NCBI RefSeq assembly: GCF_024298825.1
Contig: NZ_CP101153.1
Coordinates: 1,798,001 to 1,862,000, forward strand
Source: Haloglomus salinum
GTDB lineage: Archaea; Halobacteriota; Halobacteria; Halobacteriales; Haloarculaceae
DNA: 64,000 nucleotides
Direction: 5' to 3'
Shown: positions 44,942-64,000 of the stretch, in pieces
Numbering within the stretch: the stretch's first letter is position 1
Layout of the letters: every line of letters starts with the position of its first letter
Translations under genes and position numbers: made by a program
The notes under the pieces: model-generated
Database searches by the model: none
Told to the model about the DNA's origin: nothing
What the model saw: the letters and a program-made list of their open reading frames with translations, nothing else

Positions 44942-45089
44942 GGTCGGATGGGACTGTCGGCGTGAGCCGTGAAAAGTGTGCGTCCGTCGGATGGGTGGTC
45001 AGGGAGGCTGGGTCGCGATAGGGTGGTCGTGCGTGGTTACAGATTGGTTCCGGTGAGCGTTGAGACGCCAGCACCGACCGGACCCTGTT

Positions 45090-45198
45090 GAAAGCCCCCG
45101 CGGGCTGAGGGTCCCGCGGCTCGCTGCGGTCCTCGGGCGCCGGAGGCGCCCTGCGGTCCTTACTTCGCCGGGGCACCGCTCAGCCCGCGGCCCCTTTC
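45090..45198. repeat. Long inverted repeat with 20-base arms
   Basis: The arms 45090-45109 and 45179-45198 match as reverse complements at 17 of 20 positions (12 contiguous bases around CGCGGGCTGAG plus GAAAG/CTTTC at the ends). A smaller hairpin GGGCGCCGGAGGCGCCC lies in the loop. A transcript from either strand would fold into a strong branched structure. Confidence 0.65.
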
Positions 45199-45286
45199 AG
45201 TCCCGCCCGGGTCGGCGTTCCAGGGTCGTTTCGCACCGTGCTGGCTCGGTGCGTCGCTCCGTGGAACGAACAGCATCGGGTGGGAA

Positions 45287-45395
45287 TGGAAGGGGCTGGC
45301 CGCTCGACCCATCCCGGGCGACGCAAGCACCGCAGCGACCGCAGGGAGCGAGGAGCGCAGCGAGCCCCGGATGGTCGAGCGGGCAGGGGCTTCCA
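45287..45395. repeat. Imperfect long hairpin, dispersed repeat family copy 2
   Basis: Arms beginning TGGAAGGGGCTGGCCGCTCG and ending TCGAGCGGGCAGGGGCTTCC pair imperfectly. The interior GACGCAAGCACCGCAG (45320-45335) plus the GAGGAGCGCAGCGAGCC run matches the order of elements at 19616-19733. Confidence 0.6.
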
Positions 45396-45543
45396 ATACG
45401 GTTCAATTCGTGGTCGTCATCACTGAACCTCCCTGTAACTACACTCCTGGTACCTGTTCGCCAGAGGGGGTGCCCAACACTCGCTCCGTATTCGAACCGG
45501 GTAGCGGGCCAAACGCTCAAGCCGTCCGCCCACCCGTCCCTGG

Positions 45544-46911
45544 ATGATGCCGATTCTGGACGAGCTCTCGGGGTTCGAGTTCGAGGACGTGATGGAGGAC
45601 GTCTTCCGGAACCTCGGCTACGAGAACGTCCGGCAGGCCGCCAAGACCGCCGACGAGGGACGGGACATCGTCATGGAGGAGGTCGTCGACGGGACCCGCC
45701 GGAGTATCGTCGTCGAGTGCAAGCACACCGGCTCGGTCGGGCGGCCGGTCGTCCAGAAGCTCCACTCGGCCATCGCCACCCACGACTTCGACGGCCCGAA
45801 GCGCGGGATGGTCGTCACGACGGGCCGGTTCAGCGGCCCGGCCGAGGAGTACGCCGAGCGACTCGACGCGAACGACGACCCGTACCCCATCGAACTCGTC
45901 GACGGCCGCGACCTCCGCGAGCTGGCCGAGGAGGTCGGACTGGACCTGTACAACGGCCGTATCGAGGTGCTCTGTGACGAGACGCTCCGGCCGCGCGACC
46001 CGACCGGGACGGTCGACTCGCCGCTGTTCGAGGTCGTCCGCGACGTGGAGAACCTCTCGGTGGCGGACCTGCCACCGGCCGACCGGCGGGCGCACTTCCA
46101 GCCGGTCGTCGTCGTGTCCGCTCGCGTCCAGGCCACGTTCGAGACCTCCGTCGGCGTCGTCCACCGCGTCGACGAGGCCGACGCGATTGCCCTCCACGCC
46201 GGGCGGGGCGGCCCGACCCCCTGCTCGTCGGCGGTCGCACAGCTCGTCGCCAGCAACCTCTCGCAGGCGGTCGACCTGGACGAGGACGCGTTCGCGGAGA
46301 CGTTCGACGACCTCGTCGTCGACCGGTTCGGCCAGACCCAGACCGAGTACAAGGACTGGGCTGTCGACCGGTTCCGGCGCCGGCACACGACGACGGTCCG
46401 GTACACCGGCGACAACAACGTCACGTACACGAAGGAGTGCGAGCCCAGACAGTCCGATATCTCGGTCCAGTCGGTCACGCCCATCTACCTCCCGCAGGTC
46501 CGGTTCGGCGTGACGCTCGGCGAGTACACGCACGGCTACGAGGCCTACGTCGCCGGCCCCTCGCGGGTGACCGTCGAGGACGCGGTCCGGCGTTGCGTCC
46601 ACTGCGAGACGGATGCGAGTGACGAGACGTACACGTACTGCGCGAACTGCGGCAGCATCAACTGCGAGCGCCACACGAAGACCGAGCGGCTGGAGGGGAC
46701 CCCGGTCTGTACCGGCTGTTCGGTGACGGAGCAGTTCGCGTTCGCGACGAAGCACTTCTACGACGAGGCGAATCTCGAGACGTTCCGCGAGGAGTACGAG
46801 GCGATGGCGGTCCACGAGAAGGCGATGGAGAACCCGCCGCTGGTCGGTGGGGGCGCGGTCACGGCCGTCGTACTGGCCCTCACGCTGCTGGTGGTGACGG
46901 GGGTCATCTGA
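45544..46911 (+). CDS. Membrane-anchored Mrr-like restriction endonuclease
   Basis: 455 residues. The N-terminal 125 residues are an Mrr-type PD-(D/E)XK nuclease: GFEFEDVMEDVFRNLGYENV, DEGRDIVMEE and VVECKHTGSVGRPVVQKLHSAI supply the acid and ECK catalytic elements. A middle beta-rich domain of 220 residues is unrecognised. Then two zinc-binding knuckles (CVHCETDASDETYTYCANCG, CERHTKTERLEGTPVCTGC) and a C-terminal membrane helix. A membrane-tethered nuclease suggests action on incoming DNA, but self-DNA repair or a non-nuclease role is possible. Confidence 0.8.
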   Translation: MMPILDELSGFEFEDVMEDVFRNLGYENVRQAAKTADEGRDIVMEEVVDGTRRSIVVECKHTGSVGRPVVQKLHSAIATHDFDGPKRGMVVTTGRFSGPAEEYAERLDANDDPYPIELVDGRDLRELAEEVGLDLYNGRIEVLCDETLRPRDPTGTVDSPLFEVVRDVENLSVADLPPADRRAHFQPVVVVSARVQATFETSVGVVHRVDEADAIALHAGRGGPTPCSSAVAQLVASNLSQAVDLDEDAFAETFDDLVVDRFGQTQTEYKDWAVDRFRRRHTTTVRYTGDNNVTYTKECEPRQSDISVQSVTPIYLPQVRFGVTLGEYTHGYEAYVAGPSRVTVEDAVRRCVHCETDASDETYTYCANCGSINCERHTKTERLEGTPVCTGCSVTEQFAFATKHFYDEANLETFREEYEAMAVHEKAMENPPLVGGGAVTAVVLALTLLVVTGVI

Positions 46912-46999
46912 CGCCGGGCGCGGTCGTCACCCGTTCCGGTTCCGACTGCCCCCCGTTTCCGGTCGAACGGTTATGCTCCCCCCGCCCGACACACCGGGT

Positions 47000-51966: not shown

Positions 51967-52082
51967 TGGTGCCTCCGTAGCCGGAGTGGGTGCGATTTTT
52001 CACCTTCGGTGCAGTAGCGGTGGTGGCGGCGATGATGACGGTTACCCCCACCGTCTCCTGATTTCTACTAGTGGCTTCGCGA

Positions 52083-52595
52083 CTAATCGGCCTCGCAGAC
52101 ACAGACGCCTCCCTCGCGAATCTGGGCCACGACGTACTCGTGGACGCTCTCGGCGAGGGCTCGCATCGCCGTCGCCTGCTCCTCGGTCGGGCGGCGTCCG
52201 CCGTAGTAGCTATCCGTCCGATTCGTATCGTACAGCCGTCGGAGTCCCTCGGTCGTCTCCCTCGATAGCAGACCCAGGTCGGTCGCCCGGTCGTAACAGC
52301 GCGTGTGGTCGTGGAAGTCGTCCAGTTCGTCACCACCCTCCGCGAGCGCGAACGCCTCGACAGACCGTTCGGTCGCGCCGAAGCAGAGCTCCGTCGTCGC
52401 GGTGTACAACCCCGCTCCAGAGAGCCGCTCAACCGCAGTCAGCAGTCGACAGGCCTTGGTGAGTTGCGTCTTCCAGTCCGCGTCCGCATCGATACGTTCC
52501 TCGCGGGTTGGGATACCGTGCCCCTCCTCGTTGAACGCGTCGGTAGCCGCTGCGAGCGCGTCCACAATCGCTCCGGGGTCGGACGAATCACTCAT
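52083..52595 (-). CDS. HEPN-domain protein, probable toxin of MNT-HEPN pair
   Basis: 170 residues from the ATG giving MSDSSDPGAIVDAL; a GTG three codons upstream is an alternative. Helical throughout: WKTQLTKACRLLTAVERLSG, ATTELCFGATERSVEAFALAEG, HDHTRCYDRATDLGLLSRETTEGLRRLYDTNRTDSYYGG, MRALAESVHEYVV. This is the HEPN layout, although the classical RxxxxH is replaced by Arg-x6-His. Partner of the overlapping nucleotidyltransferase gene. RNase toxicity is expected from the family, not shown. Confidence 0.78.
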   Translation of the reverse strand: MSDSSDPGAIVDALAAATDAFNEEGHGIPTREERIDADADWKTQLTKACRLLTAVERLSGAGLYTATTELCFGATERSVEAFALAEGGDELDDFHDHTRCYDRATDLGLLSRETTEGLRRLYDTNRTDSYYGGRRPTEEQATAMRALAESVHEYVVAQIREGGVCVCEAD

Positions 52596-53280
52596 CCAGA
52601 TCACCGTGGAGGATCATCCCCTGGACCGTCTCGAACTTCTCGGTGCTGTGGAGGACGAGTCCATCGCTCAGTATCTCGCGGAGTTCGTCCGTGTATCCGG
52701 GAACCGCGGGAAGCGACTCGACATCGATCTCGTACTCGTACCGGCCGGTGTCGAACTCCCGCGCTTCGAGTGTCTGGCGGACATCGTTCGCGACCCGTTG
52801 TGCTGCCAGCCGGTCTTCCTCGACCAGCACCCACAGGTCGATGTCGCTCCGCCGGTCGGCTTCGCCCCGCGCGACGCTCCCGTAGAGGACTATTCCGACG
52901 AGGGCTTCCAGTTCGGTCCGTAGCTCGTCGACTGCCTCCCGTACCGGCGGCTGGAACTCCGCCTGCGGGATGTCCAGTATCGGATCATCCGGGCGGGACA
53001 GACGTTCGCGATTGATCCGGACCAATCGGGTGTTCCCCTCGCGTCGGTCCACGACGAGGTCGTTGGAGGCCAAGAGGTCGACTGCCTTCGAGACGCTGGT
53101 CCGGGAGTACTCCACGGCCGTCGCCAGGTCGGTAATGGAGAACTCGTCCGTGTGCTGTCGTGATAAAAAGTATAGAACCGCGTGTGCGGTCTCGCTTCCG
53201 AATATACGGGTATCCTGTGCGGGGATGTCGAGGGAGATTCGGGTCCTCCCACCGGACTGTGTGTTCGAGTTCGTTACCAT
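52588..53280 (-). CDS. MNT-type nucleotidyltransferase with N-terminal winged helix, antitoxin
   Basis: 230 residues from the ATG giving MVTNSNTQSGGRTRI, about 30 bases after a TATAAG box. Residues 25-95 are a winged helix (FSITDLATAVEYSRTSVSKAVDLLASNDLVVDRREGNTR). Residues 120-170 hold the minimal nucleotidyltransferase signature YGSVARGEADRRSDIDLWVL. In MNT-HEPN systems the transferase AMPylates and silences the HEPN toxin. The attached DNA-binding domain suggests it also represses the operon. Its stop overlaps the HEPN start by 8 bases. Confidence 0.86.
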   Translation of the reverse strand: MVTNSNTQSGGRTRISLDIPAQDTRIFGSETAHAVLYFLSRQHTDEFSITDLATAVEYSRTSVSKAVDLLASNDLVVDRREGNTRLVRINRERLSRPDDPILDIPQAEFQPPVREAVDELRTELEALVGIVLYGSVARGEADRRSDIDLWVLVEEDRLAAQRVANDVRQTLEAREFDTGRYEYEIDVESLPAVPGYTDELREILSDGLVLHSTEKFETVQGMILHGDLDE

Positions 53281-53359
53281 AGATAGGCTTCGTGCCTCTA
53301 TCCACTTATAGTTCATATGCATAACGGGAAGCCTTTATGAGTACTTGTGCCATCTCGGA

Positions 53360-55672: not shown

Positions 55673-55779
55673 GGGGCCGCGCCCGCGCCGTAGCGATGGT
55701 GAGGATGACCTGACCGTGGTGCAGCAGCATATCTCCGGGGTAACCGGCAGGTACTCCGGCGCCACTCGCCTGTCGAACA

Positions 55780-56877
55780 CTACGCGAGCAGTTTGAAGAT
55801 GCGGTTCAGGTACAGTCCCCTGATGTCCTCGTAATAGGCGGTGAGATACTCGTCGATGATATCGCTTGACCCGGAGTCTCCGAGTTTGTCGCCACGCATG
55901 TACTGGACGAGTTCGCGTGGAGCATCCTCCTTTACCTTCCAGTAGTTGGTGAAGAAGTATCGCCCGTAGTGGGAGGTGATGTCGCGATATCGGTCGTCCT
56001 CGTTGTGCTCGGCGAACGCTTCCTTCCAGCACTGCCTGACCATATCGCCGTTGGTCAGTTGACCGAAGGTGCGCTCGCTCAGGATAAGATAGGGAACGTC
56101 GACGGTCGGTCTGGTTGCGAGGTACTGGAGCAGTACACGTTTGGCCTCGTCGTCGATAGGAAGAACCCGTGGGCGGTGTGACTTGTTCCCGTCACGGGTG
56201 TACCGCGAAGGGACGTACAGTGCCCGGTCGTAATCGCGAATCGGGTCAGCAGTTCCCAATTCAGGGTACCACTCATCGAGCCCGGATTGAGAGAGAGCAA
56301 TATCGTCCAGCTTGATGTTCCGGAGTTCTCCGACTCGGAGGCCGAACTTCAGTTGCAGCACGAGGAACAGCCGTTCACGGATATTGGTACACTGGCGAAC
56401 GACCTCACGCACGTCTTCGATATCGAGTGGCGGATGCTTCATCTGATCAGATTGTTCGTCCAGATCGACCTCTCGCAGTGCGAGCCGAAAGGGGTTGTAG
56501 TCCGTTGGCTGCGGGAAGGCATGATGCTCTTGCCACCACTCGTACGCGCGCGTCAGGTTGCGAACCTTCTGGAGAATCGTTGAGGATTGATTCCCGCGCG
56601 CAGCCTCAAGGTGCTGCATGAAATCTTTGACGTGAGCATCGTTGGGACAGGCGAAGTGCCGGCCAGTCTCATCCATGAACGCGCGCCACTGATCAAAGGA
56701 CTGACGGTAGTTCTTCAGCGTTGAATCACTCGCATTGTTCGGCCGCTGGACTCTGTCGAGGTAGGTTGTGAGTGGGTCCGTATCGAGCTGTCTGAACTGC
56801 GCGTTGTACTGTGCGAGCGGGTCGGTGTCTCGGTCGAACGCGGCCGCGACTTCTGCGAGATCGTCTGTCTCGGACAT
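55780..56877 (-). CDS. Tyrosine recombinase/integrase
   Basis: 365 residues from the ATG giving MSETDDLAEVAAAFDRDT. An N-terminal core-binding domain (STLKNYRQSFDQWRAFMDETG) and a catalytic domain with Arg in KFGLRVGELRN, His-x-x-Arg in TSHYGRYFFTNYW, and the Tyr nucleophile in IIDEYLTAYYEDIRGLY. PIDDEAKRVLLQYL is a family signature. It begins two bases after the stop of the core-binding-only gene and is the last of a three-gene operon. A 28-kb-distant tRNA cannot be its attachment site. Confidence 0.88.
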   Translation of the reverse strand: MSETDDLAEVAAAFDRDTDPLAQYNAQFRQLDTDPLTTYLDRVQRPNNASDSTLKNYRQSFDQWRAFMDETGRHFACPNDAHVKDFMQHLEAARGNQSSTILQKVRNLTRAYEWWQEHHAFPQPTDYNPFRLALREVDLDEQSDQMKHPPLDIEDVREVVRQCTNIRERLFLVLQLKFGLRVGELRNIKLDDIALSQSGLDEWYPELGTADPIRDYDRALYVPSRYTRDGNKSHRPRVLPIDDEAKRVLLQYLATRPTVDVPYLILSERTFGQLTNGDMVRQCWKEAFAEHNEDDRYRDITSHYGRYFFTNYWKVKEDAPRELVQYMRGDKLGDSGSSDIIDEYLTAYYEDIRGLYLNRIFKLLA

Positions 56878-56879
56878 GA

Positions 56880-57353
56880 TTACTGTTTGTCGATGGCGTG
56901 CATCCACAGCCGGTGGCACAGGTCGTCGTTCACGGCGGCAATCAGAAATGGGGAGTATCGATGTGGGTACTCGGCGTGGTGGAACATCCAGCGATAGAAG
57001 CGTTCGATTGAACTCCAGTACTTGGCCGCGCTCGATACGCCCAGGTTGCGCTCCTCGGAAAGATGCGCGGCATATCCCTCAGCGTCTGATGGGGAGCAGA
57101 GCGCCGGATGTGTCCTTCTTGATCGAGCGAACGCTTTCCACCGTTCCTCTGCCCGCTCGAGATACTGATAGTGCTTGGACTTCGTCGATTCGAGCAATCC
57201 GGTAGCATCGACGAAGTCTTCCCAGGCGTCGGTCTCCTCAAGTTCGTTTTGATAGACGTGCAGTCGGAGATGTTCGGGCACGTCGGATATTGAGGTATAG
57301 AGTCCAGCCCGAACCGCTGGGTCAGTGGGAATCCAGCGTCCTCCCTCACTCAT
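56880..57353 (-). CDS. Core-binding (SAM-like) domain-only integrase relative
   Basis: 157 residues from the ATG giving MSEGGRWIPTDPAVRAGL. The central LESTKSKHYQYLERAEERWKAFARS, LCSPSDAEGYAAHLSEERNLGVSSAAKYWSSIERFYRWMF matches the core-binding domain of the following integrase in order and spacing, but no catalytic domain follows. It could be an accessory that assembles with the integrase on DNA. Its start overlaps the stop of the coiled-coil gene by 8 bases. Confidence 0.75.
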   Translation of the reverse strand: MSEGGRWIPTDPAVRAGLYTSISDVPEHLRLHVYQNELEETDAWEDFVDATGLLESTKSKHYQYLERAEERWKAFARSRRTHPALCSPSDAEGYAAHLSEERNLGVSSAAKYWSSIERFYRWMFHHAEYPHRYSPFLIAAVNDDLCHRLWMHAIDKQ

Positions 57354-57798
57354 CTGGAGCTCCCTCGGCGAGGCGGTACTCTCCGTCCTTGACGACGATC
57401 TTATCGCCATCCATCTCGTCTATCGCATGCGCGACTCGCGTGGGGGCGTCGTTGATGATGCGCTGTACGATGACTCCGAAGGGTACTGTCTGCTCCTCTT
57501 CCAGCACATCGAGGATGGCCCCTCGCTCCCCGCGGTAGAGTCGTTTTTCGAGGTATTCGATTCGCCGGCGAGCGTCGTCCAGCTCGCGCTTCAGGTCGTT
57601 TCGCTGTGTTCTGAGTTCGATAGTGTCGTCATCTTGGCTGACCGAGAGGTCGATTTGCTTCCGGCCTACTTCGACCATCGCAAGGATGAACCGACTGATA
57701 CTCATTTCCAGCTCGTCGGCGTGATTAGCCCACTCCTCATAGGTTTCCGTCTGCGGGTAGGCTGTTGCCGTCTGCCGATTATCCGAAATATCGGGCAT
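57346..57798 (-). CDS. Coiled-coil plus winged-helix protein of the integrase operon
   Basis: 150 residues from the ATG giving MPDISDNRQTATAYPQTETY. A helical region ELEMSISRFILAMVEVGRKQIDL is followed by a coiled coil (LRTQRNDLKRELDDARRRIEYLEKRLYRG) and a C-terminal winged-helix-like unit (ILDVLEEEQTVPFGVIVQRIINDAPTRVAHAIDEMDGDKIVVKDGEYRLA). First of the three genes. A conserved near-palindrome lies 36 bases upstream, so this gene may be regulated through it or encode its binder. Confidence 0.7.
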   Translation of the reverse strand: MPDISDNRQTATAYPQTETYEEWANHADELEMSISRFILAMVEVGRKQIDLSVSQDDDTIELRTQRNDLKRELDDARRRIEYLEKRLYRGERGAILDVLEEEQTVPFGVIVQRIINDAPTRVAHAIDEMDGDKIVVKDGEYRLAEGAPDE

Positions 57799-57834
57799 AG
57801 TCACCTCGCACCGTTTGAGGCATTCTGTCGTAAT

Positions 57835-57847
57835 CAATAGCCCATTG
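57835..57847 (-). promoter_or_regulatory. Shared island motif upstream of the integrase operon
   Basis: On the minus strand CAATGGGCTATTG, extended to ATTGATTA, 36 bases before the ATG at 57798. It is one of three copies in the island (see 62021-62033 and 63709-63721). Confidence 0.55.
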
Positions 57848-58244: not shown

Positions 58245-59615
58245 ATGGCACTCATGCCACGCGGTGATGCGAGCCGATCGATCGGACCAGATAGCCAACC
58301 AGGTCAGCCGCTGCACAAATCGCTTAAAACACTGGGGATATTTAATGCCTTAGACCGTAACCTCGACAAGTTTGGGAGATTAGTTGCACAGAGGACAAAT
58401 ATTCTGATTAGGCGGTTAATCAAGAACCGTGCTCTAACTGATGGTGGAGTGGACTCAATTGACGACCCCGATCATCCAATTCGAGTCTTAGGACTTGCAC
58501 GAGTGAGCAAGGCACACCAGGCAACAGAGGGAGATAGCTTGGTGACACAGGTTGAGGATATCCAGGCGCTCGCTGAGGAGAAGGGATATCATCTAGAAAA
58601 AATCTTCATCGAGGAAGGTGTGTCTGGGCAGACTCTCGATCGGGAAGCCATCAAGAAAATAAGACATTATGCAAAAGAGTACGATATAAAATATCTAATC
58701 GTCTACGGAATAAGCCGCATCGGGCGAAACTCTCTGGAAGCAATTCAGTTTGTGATCGATCTCAAACTCAACTATGGTGTCCATGTTTTGACGCCCGAGC
58801 TTGAGGTTGATCCTTCAAAAAGCTGGAATATGTTACAGTACGTTTTTGAAGCCTGTTCTGCGGAGAATTCTACTCAGTATCGGAGTAATGCGTCCCAACG
58901 TAGCAAGAACAAAAATTGGAAGGATGGAAATTGGTCGACTGCAAAACGCGGTGTGCCACCTGGATATAAATATGTCAAAGAAAACGACTGGTTGGAGATT
59001 GATAAAGATACTGCTGCAGCAGTGGAGAGAGCGTTCAAGTTGTTTGTCCGGATCTGTGAGGTGCGGGGCCCGTATAAACAAGTATGGCGGGAGTATGGGG
59101 ATGAACTCGGTATAAGCGCGAGCGATATTCGGGACATGCTGACAGACCCAATATATGTTGGAATGCCTACATACGGCGGATCCGAAAATCGTGCTGGGGC
59201 CGAGATTTCTGAGGAGAAGCGACGGGAAGTGGCGATGATGAGTGACCCGGTGAAGGAAGTGTGGAAAGGTATCACACATCCAGACCCTGACCTGAGGATT
59301 ATCGACGACGACCTCTATGAGGAAGTTCAAAAAGCGGTGGAGAAGGTCTATGACCGGAACTCCAGATCAGATGATGTCACACAGATGAAACGGGATTTGG
59401 TTGATGAGTGGGGTCTACCTGCGGTCTATCATTCTGCCGATAATCTTGAATTCCACTGCGGCCGCTGCGGAGATCCGACAGTGAAAGATGGGGTATATCA
59501 AACAAGTGATGGGTATACCCACCGCTGGAAGTGCGTCAATGCCGACTGTGGAAAAGTTGAGGGATGGCCCAAGGAGGAGCACCGGTTCCGGATGGAGAAT
59601 CATGAATACCGGTGA
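58245..59615 (+). CDS. Large serine recombinase, AT-rich
   Basis: 456 residues. An unusual N-terminal extension of about 80 residues precedes the resolvase domain. GLARVSKAHQATEGDSLVTQ carries the catalytic Ser (Ser88), then EEGVSGQTLDREAIKK and YGISRIGRNSLEAIQF supply the Arg residues. A recombinase domain (KRGVPPGYKYVKEND ... DPIYVGMPTYGG) and a C4 zinc ribbon (FHCGRCGDP ... WKCVNADCG) follow. It is the large serine integrase class. Lower GC than the rest of the window suggests recent transfer. Confidence 0.85.
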   Translation: MALMPRGDASRSIGPDSQPGQPLHKSLKTLGIFNALDRNLDKFGRLVAQRTNILIRRLIKNRALTDGGVDSIDDPDHPIRVLGLARVSKAHQATEGDSLVTQVEDIQALAEEKGYHLEKIFIEEGVSGQTLDREAIKKIRHYAKEYDIKYLIVYGISRIGRNSLEAIQFVIDLKLNYGVHVLTPELEVDPSKSWNMLQYVFEACSAENSTQYRSNASQRSKNKNWKDGNWSTAKRGVPPGYKYVKENDWLEIDKDTAAAVERAFKLFVRICEVRGPYKQVWREYGDELGISASDIRDMLTDPIYVGMPTYGGSENRAGAEISEEKRREVAMMSDPVKEVWKGITHPDPDLRIIDDDLYEEVQKAVEKVYDRNSRSDDVTQMKRDLVDEWGLPAVYHSADNLEFHCGRCGDPTVKDGVYQTSDGYTHRWKCVNADCGKVEGWPKEEHRFRMENHEYR

Positions 59616-60195
59616 TCAAACAAAAAACGATCGGGAGCCGATGGGGGGAGTATCAACAAATACTGATGATAGACTTCCGCTACTGCGCCTAGAGGTGAGA
59701 GGTAGAAGTTCCAACCGTGCTCTTCAGTTCAGGCTTCGGCGGAAGCTGAGGGAGCTGCTGCGTTTTGCGATGATGGACTGGGTTGACCAGTTCCATATTA
59801 TCGTCTTGCCGGAAACCAACCTCCTAGAACCGATGATTGTCCTCTATCCTGTGAAGGAGGACGAAGCTAATAGGCTTTGCAGCGTGCGCACCGTCGTCAC
59901 AGAGCAGCCAAAGATGGGTGCAGAATCACAAATGAATCTGGTAATACCTCATTCAATTGTCAGAAAGATTTTCGACAGGAGCCGGCGTGTGGAGGAAGAT
60001 GTTGACTCGTATACTGGCAAGAATCATCTGCTCTTCTCTCCGATCATCTCATACATTGCCCCAGACGGAGGACTTGCGTCAGGAGTTATTGCCCTGTGGC
60101 CGCTGGGGTATGAAGACGATATCTCCGCCGAATATCCCTATCTAAAGAGATCGAGTTCGTCGAGTCAGTCAACGCTGAGTCAATATTCTCCCTAA
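59602..60195 (+). CDS. Protein of unknown function coupled to the large serine recombinase
   Basis: 197 residues from the ATG giving MNTGDQTKNDREPMGGVSTN, overlapping the recombinase stop by 14 bases. After a polar start it has LRLEVRGRSSNRALQFRLRRKLRELLRFAMMDWVDQFHIIVLPE, strands (MIVLYPVKEDEANRLCSVRTVV) and a Ser-rich end. I recognise no family. Overlap and shared composition make it a likely recombinase partner, such as a directionality factor; that is inference. Confidence 0.6.
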   Translation: MNTGDQTKNDREPMGGVSTNTDDRLPLLRLEVRGRSSNRALQFRLRRKLRELLRFAMMDWVDQFHIIVLPETNLLEPMIVLYPVKEDEANRLCSVRTVVTEQPKMGAESQMNLVIPHSIVRKIFDRSRRVEEDVDSYTGKNHLLFSPIISYIAPDGGLASGVIALWPLGYEDDISAEYPYLKRSSSSSQSTLSQYSP

Positions 60196-61190
60196 TCAGC
60201 CGCGGCGTCGGCCTTCCGGGGCCCAACTGAGTGGCCTTCGGTAGCCTGTTGACCAGAAGACCACTCACGATATTGATTTAGCATACGGTTGACTCGCTGC
60301 TTCTTGCGCTTGGGTTCTATTGGCTCTCTTAGCGCACCTCTCTGGAATCGAGTTCGAATTTTTTCAGCCAGTTCGAAGATTTCTTTCTCAATAATCGCAC
60401 ACTCTGGCTGGTTCTGTACTTCACCTTCGACCATCCGTTCTCCGAGGTATATCCTGTCACGGAGTATCCGGCTTATCTTTGCGGGGTTCCACTTGCTGTT
60501 CCGTGCCAAATCTCGAGAATTTAGATTCAGATTCTCGATGACAGCCGGCATCGACCGTACCGCGATGTACATGCTGAATATTTGCTTTACGAGGGCTGCT
60601 TCTTCCTTGTCAATTACCAGATACCCATCTTTATCGACTGAGTAACCAAACGGAGGGTTTCGATTTGGCCACTTGCCCTCCAGCGCTCGAGCGATTTGTC
60701 CCATCTTTGCACGCTGCCGAATCATCTCTCGCTCAAATTCAGCAGCGTTGGCCAAATTTCGAAAATTGAACTGCCCCGCTGGAGTAGTCGTATCAATCTG
60801 CTCGGTCAGGCTATGGAGCGCGACACCCCACTTCCGGAAGTCCGCCTCCAGCGTCACCGCGTGCATAATGCTACGAGAGAACCGATCCAGCTTCCAGAAG
60901 ACGAGGACATCGAATGCCCCCTGCCGAGCGAGCGAGAGCATCTGCTGGAACATCGGCCGGTCAGTATTCTTTCCGCTCGTTTCGCCGTCCTGAAACACGT
61001 ATGCCACCTCCCAGTCGAGGAGCCCACAACGCTCTACGCACAACCTCACCTGCTCTTCGAGAGAGTAGCCGAATCGCTGACCCCGAGAAGACGTTCTCGC
61101 GTAGATTGCGGCTCGCCAGGTCGAGTCCTCTGTTTTGCTTCCCCCCGGCTCGGGCTCGATTCCAAGCGAGAGGATAGATGACTCATCCAT
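60192..61190 (-). CDS. Serine recombinase (resolvase/invertase type)
   Basis: 332 residues. AAIYARTSSRGQRFGYSLEEQV holds the catalytic Ser (Ser34); DGETSGKNTDRPMFQQML, FWKLDRFSRSIMHAVTLEADF and GQFNFRNLANAAEFEREMI are the remaining resolvase motifs. A recombinase domain (NPPFGYSVDKDGYLVIDKEEAALVKQIF) completes it; the C-terminus lacks a zinc ribbon. Its start overlaps the TFB stop by 8 bases, so the two are co-translated. Its stop overlaps the convergent unknown gene by a few bases. Confidence 0.88.
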   Translation of the reverse strand: MDESSILSLGIEPEPGGSKTEDSTWRAAIYARTSSRGQRFGYSLEEQVRLCVERCGLLDWEVAYVFQDGETSGKNTDRPMFQQMLSLARQGAFDVLVFWKLDRFSRSIMHAVTLEADFRKWGVALHSLTEQIDTTTPAGQFNFRNLANAAEFEREMIRQRAKMGQIARALEGKWPNRNPPFGYSVDKDGYLVIDKEEAALVKQIFSMYIAVRSMPAVIENLNLNSRDLARNSKWNPAKISRILRDRIYLGERMVEGEVQNQPECAIIEKEIFELAEKIRTRFQRGALREPIEPKRKKQRVNRMLNQYREWSSGQQATEGHSVGPRKADAAAD

Positions 61191-61989
61191 TGGAATCCTC
61201 CACCTTCGCCCGAGATCTGTCGAGGTGTGACCCTTCCATAGCGACCCTGCAATCCTTCACACGCACCCGGATTGTCTCGCCGGTAACTCCTGCCGCGTCG
61301 GCCACCTCCCGCTGGGTGAGCTGGCCGTCTCCAGCGAGATAGAGTGCGGCGGCAGCAAGTCCTCCGGGATGGCAGCCTCCGCTTTGCTCTCCGGGAATCT
61401 GTTCGAGAATCGAACGTGCAGTTCTCCTGACCGTCTCGTCTAAATCAAGTGACGACGCGAGCGAATGCACGTACGCGGCTGGCGAATTCGGTATGCTAGA
61501 CCTTTCCAGCTCTCTTTGTACGAACCGCATCAACCGACCGAGTCGTGTAGACTCCATATCCGCAGCCTGTGCGATACGTTCGTTCGGCAGGGGCTGTTCC
61601 AGTTCACGACTGGCAATCCCGATAATCGCAGCTACGACTTCTCGTCCCGAGCGTCGCGCCGTGATGGACTCCACTGCAGCGTCTGCGTATAGTTCGGCAG
61701 CCCGGACACGGACCTCGGTGGGGAGGTCAAGCTGATCTGCAAACTCCTCTATGAAATCGAATGCGTCTCGCACCTCGGCTTCAGTGCTGGTTCTGACCCT
61801 GCTGAACTCCAGCCACGTCCGTTCTTCTGGCTCTTTCGCTGACCCGAAATCAATCGAACCGATTTCATCTGCGAGGGCTGCAACACCGCCGCAGGAACTG
61901 CACACACGACCGACGTGATCGAGTTCCTCAAGTGACCCCTGGGAACCACAGATGCCACACTCGCTACTGCCTCCCACTGCGTGAGTCAT
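61183..61989 (-). CDS. Divergent transcription initiation factor B (TFB)
   Basis: 268 residues from the ATG giving MTHAVGGSSECGICGSQ. A zinc ribbon (Cys11, Cys14, Cys30, Cys33) is followed by a short B-reader/linker (RTWLEFSRVRTSTEAEVRDAF) and two cyclin repeats (LYADAAVESITARRSGREVVAAIIGIASREL; GGCHPGGLAAAALYLAGDGQLTQREVADAAGVTGETIRVRVKD). It is shorter and more diverged than chromosomal TFBs. Haloarchaea carry many TFBs with different promoter sets. Being co-translated with a recombinase, it may serve promoters of this element. Confidence 0.87.
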   Translation of the reverse strand: MTHAVGGSSECGICGSQGSLEELDHVGRVCSSCGGVAALADEIGSIDFGSAKEPEERTWLEFSRVRTSTEAEVRDAFDFIEEFADQLDLPTEVRVRAAELYADAAVESITARRSGREVVAAIIGIASRELEQPLPNERIAQAADMESTRLGRLMRFVQRELERSSIPNSPAAYVHSLASSLDLDETVRRTARSILEQIPGEQSGGCHPGGLAAAALYLAGDGQLTQREVADAAGVTGETIRVRVKDCRVAMEGSHLDRSRAKVEDSNG

Positions 61990-62020
61990 CACCCGACAGG
62001 TCGGCCCAGAGTAGGTTACT

Positions 62021-62078: not shown

Positions 62079-62570
62079 TTAGCCCTCACTGGTCCCCCCG
62101 AACTCCCCCAATTGGAGGACGTAGCGCACGGGAAGCGGAAGCGTGGGGCGCGGCGCATTCCGGTGGCGTCTGATGGACTCGGATTTCCGGGCTCGTTGCT
62201 GAATTGCTCGCAACATCGGTACGCTGGCGAGGTAGCCCAGCTCTCCGAGAATAATCACTCCATACGTCGTTGGGCCGTAGAACCGACGTGGGGAGCCGGG
62301 GTTCCACTTATCGGAATCATACGTGTACTCGGCTATGATGCCGTGTTCAACCAGCCTCTGGAGATGATATCCGACTACAGGCAGGGGATTACCGGGCAGG
62401 AAGTGGGCTATCTCGGACTTGCTCGCCAGGGCGGCAGGGTGTCCGAGGATAGTCTGGATTATCAGGTAGCGATGCTCCTGAGAGAGAAATCTGGCAATCT
62501 GAAACAAATACTGCACAGGGCCCAGTGTCGTGCCCTTCCGTGGAACTCCCGATCCATCACGCGGGGTCAC
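62079..62570 (-). CDS. Winged-helix transcriptional regulator
   Basis: 163 residues from the GTG giving MTPRDGSGVPRKGTTLG; this GTG overlaps the nuclease stop as GTGA, which decides the start over an ATG 27 codons upstream. LGPVQYLFQIARFLSQEHRYLIIQTILGHPAALASKSEIAHFLPGNPLPVVGYHLQRLVEHGIIAEY with a wing PRRFYGPTTYGVI is an ArsR-like winged helix. Positioned after the nuclease and before the TFB promoter, it is a candidate to bind the shared motif. Confidence 0.75.
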   Translation of the reverse strand: MTPRDGSGVPRKGTTLGPVQYLFQIARFLSQEHRYLIIQTILGHPAALASKSEIAHFLPGNPLPVVGYHLQRLVEHGIIAEYTYDSDKWNPGSPRRFYGPTTYGVIILGELGYLASVPMLRAIQQRARKSESIRRHRNAPRPTLPLPVRYVLQLGEFGGTSEG

Positions 62571-63703
62571 GACTCTGGCTCGACCATGGGAACAGCCTGT
62601 TTCTCGGGGGAGGGGCCGGTGAGCTCGGCTGGAATCTCCCTGTGTCTGCAATCAGGGCAGCTGGGGAGCTGGTCTACGTCCCCATCCCAGTCGACGGCCC
62701 GCATGGTGTGCGAGGACCCACAGACCGAGCATCGCCAGTCGTAGCTCCCGTATTCCGATGCTAGCTCCGGAAACTCGTGTGCGAGCGTGGGGGTGAGCTT
62801 CGCCGTCGGATGAGCCGCCAGATACGTCCTGATTTGCTCTCGCGGATAGTCCGCCACGAGTGGGAGCAACCCGGTTGGACCAGCGTCGGCATGCGGACCA
62901 TCCCCCTTCCCGCAACGGCGTCGATATGGGCAGTACTGACACTCCCATTCGTATTCTGGCACGGCAGGTGGGAGCTCTTTCGACTGCCGGAACGCTGTAT
63001 TCTGTTCGGCCCACGGTAGCACCCGATCCTCCCAGAACGCGAGGTCGAAATCGACGTGGAACGTTCTGACCTCGAAGTCCTCACGGCTCGCGTAGAGAAC
63101 CACTGCTTCGCGGAGCTTGCAGTCGTACTTCTCCGATAGCCCGTACAGGTAACAGTGGACCTGAGCAAGGTGTTGCTCCTTCGGCTCTTGCAGGTGTGTG
63201 ACGGAGGACGTGGTCTTGATTTCGGTCAGGAGTAGCGGGGTGCTGTCTTCGTCAACCACAACTGGGTCGGTTTCGCCTCGGATTCGGAGGTCGTCCCCCT
63301 CGCGCCGAATCGTGAAGTCGACCCACATCGAGTTCCGCACGTACTCGTCTGTCCCGGTCTGGTCCCTGAGAAACGGAACGGCGATGTCCGTCTCGAACTT
63401 CGACCCGAACCAGAAGATTCCCTGCGGTGCGGCCGTCTCCTTGGGGGCATTGAATGTATCGTAGAAGCTCCGTCGATGACACCGGAGGAGGCGGCTGGGT
63501 GAGTGGCGACCGGACTCTGGAATCCGTGGCGGCCCGTTGAAGTAGGGTTTACCGTTCTCGATGTTCTGTCGCTGCTGTCGATTCTGATACCATCTGGAGA
63601 ACTCTCGACCAGTGACTCTGGCCGATCGAGGAGACCCGTTTTCGGCTGTCGTTTGCGGTTTCTGAGACGCTGGAGGCACGTCTGTGATTTCCGCCACGGC
63701 CAC
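62567..63703 (-). CDS. Cas4-like PD-(D/E)XK nuclease with iron-sulfur cysteines and zinc ribbon
   Basis: 378 residues with a GTG start. Cys75 (RLLRCHRRSFY) and Cys255, Cys258, Cys264 (ECQYCPYRRRCG) match the four Fe-S Cys of Cas4/AddB-type nucleases. Catalytic residues are Asp146 (IRGETDPVVV) and Glu161-Lys163 (LTEIKTTSS), with a following Gln (EQHLAQVHCYLYG). A C-terminal zinc ribbon is added (WRCSVCGSS ... PSCPDCRHR). No CRISPR array or other cas genes are nearby. It probably processes DNA ends for the island or a relative. Confidence 0.85.
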   Translation of the reverse strand: MAVAEITDVPPASQKPQTTAENGSPRSARVTGREFSRWYQNRQQRQNIENGKPYFNGPPRIPESGRHSPSRLLRCHRRSFYDTFNAPKETAAPQGIFWFGSKFETDIAVPFLRDQTGTDEYVRNSMWVDFTIRREGDDLRIRGETDPVVVDEDSTPLLLTEIKTTSSVTHLQEPKEQHLAQVHCYLYGLSEKYDCKLREAVVLYASREDFEVRTFHVDFDLAFWEDRVLPWAEQNTAFRQSKELPPAVPEYEWECQYCPYRRRCGKGDGPHADAGPTGLLPLVADYPREQIRTYLAAHPTAKLTPTLAHEFPELASEYGSYDWRCSVCGSSHTMRAVDWDGDVDQLPSCPDCRHREIPAELTGPSPEKQAVPMVEPES

Positions 63704-63733: not shown

Positions 63734-64000
63734 CTATCTCCGGGGGGATACCCTGGTGTCTCTGAGAACCGCGTCAATAGCAGCCTCGTTGACTGCAGAC
63801 ACAACAGCGGCAATCAGGAGGTTTGGTCCGCGGGAAACACGCTGTCGCTCGGGGTCGTAGATGACGATGTCTGCTTCCGCCAGGGTGGGTAGATGAGTCT
63901 GAGAGAGCGCATTGTAGACGTTCCGATAGGGCTCGCCAGTAGCATGAGACGGTGCGACGAACTGCTCCATCGCGGCTATCTCCCGCGCGAGTTCTCTCGT
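63734..64000 (-). CDS. DUF7344-type winged-helix protein, N-terminus beyond window
   Basis: The frame is open from 64000 down to the stop at 63734. The visible part reads TRELAREIAAMEQFVAPSHA, then NVYNALSQTHLPTLAEADIVIYDPERQRVSRG, the second half of the DUF7344 winged helix, and a 35-residue end. No membrane helices are visible, unlike the paralogues at 15-17 kb. It is cut by the window edge. Confidence 0.75.
   Translation of the reverse strand, partial: TRELAREIAAMEQFVAPSHATGEPYRNVYNALSQTHLPTLAEADIVIYDPERQRVSRGPNLLIAAVVSAVNEAAIDAVLRDTRVSPRR

Follow-up and report, generated by a model that had tools for sequence, protein, structure and literature searches.

A diverged paralogue of the archaeal transcription factor TFB (hereafter TFBx) is tied to a serine recombinase (hereafter SR1) across haloarchaea: the two genes overlap in the analysed window (64,000 nucleotides of the Haloglomus salinum genome), and they are co-directional neighbours at all 34 TFBx loci examined. 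Judged from sequence, the pair belongs to a conserved module that consists of a Cas4-like nuclease of the Fe-S type, TFBx, SR1, another serine recombinase in convergent orientation (SR2), a divergent winged-helix gene and, often, tyrosine recombinases, and the carriers of this module are haloarchaeal integrative islands with predicted anti-phage cargo. Our best overall explanation, which we regard as plausible and evenly poised, is a conserved recombination module on mobile defence islands with TFBx as a trans-acting cofactor. The relevant features of the window are as follows.

52025..52053, plus strand: left half of a split C/D-box sRNA gene at the island left end, ending in GTTACCCCCACCG (empty site in G393; partial Rfam sR1 match, 0.024).
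55780..56919, minus strand: tyrosine recombinase (Phage_integrase 1e-6 and a SAM-like domain; NCBIfam XerA 8.5e-18, under the cut-off).
56880..57410, minus strand: protein resembling a tyrosine-recombinase N-terminus (Phage_int_SAM_4 1.8e-5, under the cut-off; homologue in locus L043 of G282).
57346..57837, minus strand: companion ORF of the tyrosine recombinases (order kept in L043; without a significant family).
58245..59615, plus strand: SR2, second serine recombinase with a C-terminal zinc ribbon, convergent with SR1 (Resolvase 1.7e-17, Recombinase 6e-6).
59602..60195, plus strand: putative ORF between SR2 and SR1 (listed as ORF 59488-60195; no Pfam or NCBIfam match).
60192..61190, minus strand: SR1, serine recombinase with catalytic and Recombinase domains and without a zinc ribbon (Resolvase 3e-35, Recombinase 1e-12).
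61183..61992, minus strand: TFBx, TFB paralogue with a zinc ribbon and two cyclin repeats (Pfam, alignments and AF2 model).
62079..62651, minus strand: small HTH ORF between nuclease and TFBx (HTH_20 2e-5, under the Pfam cut-off).
62567..63703, minus strand: Cas4-like PD-(D/E)XK nuclease with Fe-S type cysteines and an extra zinc ribbon, upstream of TFBx in the module order (PDDEXK_1 1e-8, Cas4 models 3e-10).
63734..64000, minus strand: DUF7344 protein at the operon start, running on to 64111 (PF24035 4e-14).

In the ORF list, TFBx (269 aa) and SR1 (332 aa) overlap by 8 nt; the minus strand at the overlap reads AATGGATGAG, and the SR1 start contains the TFBx stop TGA. The initial annotation had described a TFB gene overlapping a serine recombinase gene, which is borne out by this overlap and by the Pfam matches (TFIIB, Resolvase and Recombinase). 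Its span of 60192-61989 covers the same genes, although the end at 61989 is one codon off the longest start at 61992. It had also proposed a survey of TFB-recombinase adjacency, which gives a sharp separation: against the 34/34 TFBx loci that are linked to SR1, no recombinase occurs in the 1.5 kb checked to either side at any of 18 canonical TFB loci. The pairing is therefore more than chance. The two genes overlap or lie no more than 10 nt apart at 33 of the 34 loci (in the remaining one, L118, SR1 is broken), with TFBx preceding SR1 at 22 loci and following it at 12.

Searches from either gene lead to the same pair. A TFBx query against 392 genomes of the order returned 17 further matches, near full length, all of which adjoin SR1 (17/17), and most of these loci have a Cas4-like gene before the pair and a convergent SR2 after it. 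An SR1 query against the 392 genomes matched 27 genomes, with TFBx beside SR1 in 27/27 and in the order SR1 then TFBx in nine. When 391 genomes of the class were searched with a profile, TFBx came up at 32 sites with E <= 1.4e-66, while ordinary TFBs scored 3.5e-52 and weaker; at loci that had not been used earlier, SR1 is adjacent to TFBx in 6/6 cases, against 0/2 for control ordinary TFBs. TFBx is thus found in about 8% of sampled haloarchaeal genomes. The 34 loci include a divergent relative on the Haloarcula marina plasmid NZ_CP100409.1, which was reached via SR1 and is annotated in that record as a hypothetical protein. A scan of genome contigs and viral contigs with the TFBx protein gave no match, nor did phage and plasmid collections at the limits used, and the SR1 matches on viral contigs are generic serine recombinases without a TFBx or Cas4-like partner. 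The original claim of a diverged TFB coupled to a recombinase in a mobile element thus holds as a conserved linkage.

TFBx is a monophyletic offshoot of TFB. It carries two stretches of the Pfam TFIIB repeat (2e-21), and its best solved relative is Pyrococcus TFB (1d3u; phmmer against PDB, 1e-21). The complete 4.19-Mb host genome holds nine other TFB matches (27-35% identity). In the tree, TFBx forms a single clade separate from ordinary TFBs (support 100/99), with long branches included. The AlphaFold2 model (pLDDT 86.8) predicts a ribbon, a double cyclin fold and a weakly predicted linker at residues 42-53, and its top PDB matches are TFIIB/TFB structures (1d3u, TMt 0.79). Both cyclin repeats are kept, which we take to be a contrast with Sulfolobus TFB3. 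A CxxC..CxxC zinc ribbon is present at the N-terminus, and an alignment of 27 members has C12, C15, C31, C34, E239 and T240 invariant, i.e. the four ribbon cysteines and an E-T pair that replaces the V-T of ordinary TFBs in an otherwise present second-repeat recognition helix. The V of V-T presumably matches human TFIIB V283, which we take to contact the BRE (V283 and R286 being the BRE residues). Compared with 18 canonical TFBs, about 50 residues between ribbon and core are missing from TFBx; the B-reader, together with most of the B-linker, is gone from all TFBx members aligned, and with them the parts that position the template in the active site of the polymerase. This makes a stand-alone role as an 'archaeal sigma factor' unlikely, while the kept zinc ribbon argues for polymerase contact.

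The 20-kb neighbourhoods of TFBx run in the order divergent winged-helix gene, DUF7344, Cas4-like gene, TFBx, SR1, facing SR2 and tyrosine recombinases, beyond which the genes vary. Catalytic-type residues of SR1 such as S34, R103 and R106 are near-invariant among 27 homologues, and no CxxC zinc ribbon was found in the SR1 sequence after the Recombinase domain. The D, ExK and QxxxY motifs and the Fe-S cysteines of the nuclease are near-invariant among 22 homologues, and its conserved neighbours are the recombinases and TFBx. A convergent SR2-type gene is present at most module loci and a DUF7344 cluster at 10/18, while the small HTH ORF at 62079..62651 is absent from most other module loci. 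Pairwise distances of TFBx and SR1 correlate at 0.80 (26 pairs), a value that common ancestry by itself raises. Outside the haloarchaeal order, G649, which belongs to another family of the phylum, contains a Cas4-like protein (recognised by its motifs, with no Pfam match), SR1, a facing SR2 and a tyrosine recombinase (L155 7102-10294). Its SR1 is equal in size to that of the module and has no adjoining TFBx. This suggests that TFBx is dispensable for recombination as such and looks like a later addition to an older nuclease-recombinase core.

Two types of palindromic operator lie upstream of the operon, GTCTNNAGAC and TTCC..GGAA beside a TATA-like stretch, in the intergenic stretch that separates the DUF7344 and winged-helix genes (64112-64294 in window numbering) and in the same region of L040-L056. 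The operator type tracks the class to which the divergent winged-helix gene belongs, which suggests that this gene is the likelier switch of the operon.

The module of H. salinum lies in an island of 52.4 kb (52041-104427, extending past the window), as defined by comparison with an empty site in the close relative G393. The G393 sequence matches the window to 52051 and resumes at 104415, and the two ends meet within 11 bp. A 13-bp direct repeat, GTTACCCCCACCG, occupies 52041-52053 and 104415-104427 (the latter outside the window), and the empty site carries GTTACCCCCAC. The mobile context that had been proposed for the pair is thereby confirmed. We also observe CTACTAGTGG in direct orientation just inside both island ends (52066-52075 and about 104397-104406), where it may serve as an arm site for a recombinase. 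What looks like an inverted att copy at 55737-55765 (72%) is taken as chance, and inverted repeats at 52-64 kb delimit no convincing invertible segment. Separately, about 2 kb at 44950-46943 of the window are missing from the same place in G393.

The target of this island is a predicted C/D-box guide sRNA gene, which the island splits and of which it contains an intact copy. In the empty-site sequence, C, D', C' and D boxes are accompanied by a terminal stem, and several relatives have this sequence too; the boxes are also found in the internal copy and in G307, and the D' box is CTCA in G393. Rfam C/D-box models match exactly at the site in three genomes (sR1 1.5e-5, 9e-5 and 3e-4), with a best score at the site of 33.4 bits, which does not reach the gathering score of 45. 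The core of the repeat is the D' guide of the sRNA and pairs at 11/12 positions (G-U allowed) with LSU rRNA at ~1938. The right part of the split gene lies beyond the window at 104415-104460 and has no Rfam match. The intact copy within the island (92931-92995 in window numbering; Rfam sR1 7.6e-6) is 86% identical to the G393 site over 71 bp (E 1.5e-16). Split gene and internal copy fit one island that carries a replacement copy; alternatively, they fit two tandem cassettes (52041-92947 and 92947-104427), each restoring one half.

The element of G339 (~36.9 kb) begins at the 3' end of a tRNA-Arg and is bordered on the right by a tyrosine integrase, so the elements that carry the module do not share one target. 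G119 and G271 have a common element, of which the left border alone is approachable (against G319); the empty-site search for G282 gave scattered matches only, no clean element ends are readable in G343, and no att motif common to different elements was found.

The island cargo includes a DISARM-type set (PADLOC: DrmA 7e-151, DrmB 4e-53, DrmMI 3e-100, DrmMII 4e-87 and DrmD 7e-114), i.e. the combination of DrmA, DrmB, a methyltransferase and a DrmD-type helicase by which DISARM is recognised. Besides this set, with its DrmD/BrxHII-like proteins, the island encodes an ion channel, a PolB and a pair of PDC-S11 candidates. Near the modules of other genomes are PbeA/PbeC and a methyltransferase (G339), type I restriction genes (G135) and defence-related helicases (G124 and G168), the last three genomes being described by neighbourhood. 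Two other observations concern the island here. A nucleotidyltransferase (NTP_transf_2 6e-9) and a small companion ORF at its left end (52083-53322) may be a HEPN-MNT type pair, and a 417-aa protein (L011 1078-2331; 93077-94330 in window numbering), with no Pfam or PADLOC match, has a start resembling that of a G271-element protein.

Four explanations of TFBx were ranked. First, and tentatively preferred, TFBx may be a dedicated, element-specific, trans-acting transcription cofactor of the TFB3 type. In the proposed mechanism, the winged-helix protein would gate the operon; TFBx, without a B-reader, would act with a host TFB, like Sulfolobus TFB3, its ribbon docking RNA polymerase and its altered recognition helix picking element promoters; mobility genes would go up solely when the element calls; and the nuclease and recombinases, possibly jointly with the tyrosine recombinases, would mobilise the island. 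SR1 may be the excision enzyme, but tyrosine recombinases are also present, one of them bordering the G339 element.

The second explanation, possible though less probable, is that TFBx is a recombination partner, i.e. a TFB-derived DNA-binding subunit that would bind att or accessory sites together with SR1 and there set site choice or direction. That TFBx always adjoins SR1 and is translationally coupled to it, whichever gene comes first, suits a physical partner of SR1 no less than a regulator. The distance correlation, though raised by ancestry in any case, points the same way, as do the changed recognition helix and an SR1 without the C-terminal zinc ribbon that SR2 carries. Against it, the equal-sized SR1 of G649 has no TFBx beside it, the invariant TFB-type ribbon suggests retained polymerase contact, and the elements have yielded no common att motif. 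A fuller version, in which a basal factor has turned into a subunit of a recombination machine and TFBx guides or gates the serine recombinase at DNA sites, on defence islands able to use a C/D-box sRNA gene and bring a spare copy, strikes us as rather unlikely.

The third explanation, in which TFBx would act as a complete alternative initiation factor that serves the excision genes, is improbable. The initial annotation had suggested such a factor, brought by the element as a counterpart of phage sigma factors. The TFB fold and ribbon are retained, multiple TFBs are used for promoter choice in haloarchaea (PMC7289017), and a putative TFB is known from a rod-shaped archaeal virus. The suggestion nevertheless lacks support: all members have lost the B-reader and the greater part of the B-linker, V-T has become E-T, and TFB3 works only with canonical TFB, in trans, and cannot replace it (PMC7289017). 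A repressor or dominant-negative role, in which TFBx would hold TBP-DNA or the polymerase dock, leaving promoters unopened and the element silent, accords with the anatomy expected of a non-productive TFB and is just as improbable, TFBx sharing its operon with the very recombinase to be silenced and a separate winged-helix candidate repressor being present.

The TFBx-SR1-Cas4-like linkage appears to be new, while element-borne TFIIB in thaumarchaeal integrative elements and a predicted viral TFB are known; a literature search, thin on subscription papers and hence weak evidence, did not find this linkage. The family is testable: a basal transcription factor locked to a recombinase in the stated share of haloarchaeal genomes offers a way to study how the mobile elements of archaea regulate or direct their mobility. 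Furthermore, the module islands are identified as a vehicle by which type I restriction, DISARM and Pbe genes are carried between archaea, and a C/D-box sRNA gene is recognised as an integration target. Archaeal serine recombinases have, according to a 2021 review, never been fully investigated (PMC8371274).

Among known systems, the staphylococcal cassette chromosome (SCC) also has two large serine recombinases on a chromosomal cassette (CcrA and CcrB), and SR1 and SR2 score against Ccr models. SCC elements carry defence cargo and form tandem cassettes. The module here differs in scoring far under the NCBIfam Ccr cut-offs, which SR1 does not reach (106 bits against 900 for CcrB and 77 against 700 for CcrA), in its target gene, in its convergent recombinase genes and in the extra nuclease and TFBx. 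Islander-type islands at tRNA genes likewise restore a split target with island DNA (PMC4383910); their target is a tRNA gene rather than the C/D-box sRNA gene used here, although the G339 relative does use tRNA-Arg. The module nuclease has RecB-type motifs and cysteines in common with solo-Cas4/pfam12705 nucleases, for which we found no TFB or serine recombinase linkage in a Cas4 phylogenomics paper (PMC5704561). The island resembles DISARM in its DrmA-, DrmB-, DrmMI-, DrmMII- and DrmD-like cargo and differs in having one more helicase, of the BrxHII/DrmD type, and one more methyltransferase. In thaumarchaeal ICEs, an element-borne TFIIB gene stands beside a gene for element maintenance, with which it probably forms an operon (PMC6563490), but its partner is ParB, whereas that of TFBx is SR1. 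The nearest tested analogue of TFBx is Sulfolobus TFB3, a TFB paralogue that activates in trans (PMC7289017); TFB3 is a chromosomal DNA-damage regulator, whereas TFBx resides on mobile elements and is linked there to a recombinase.
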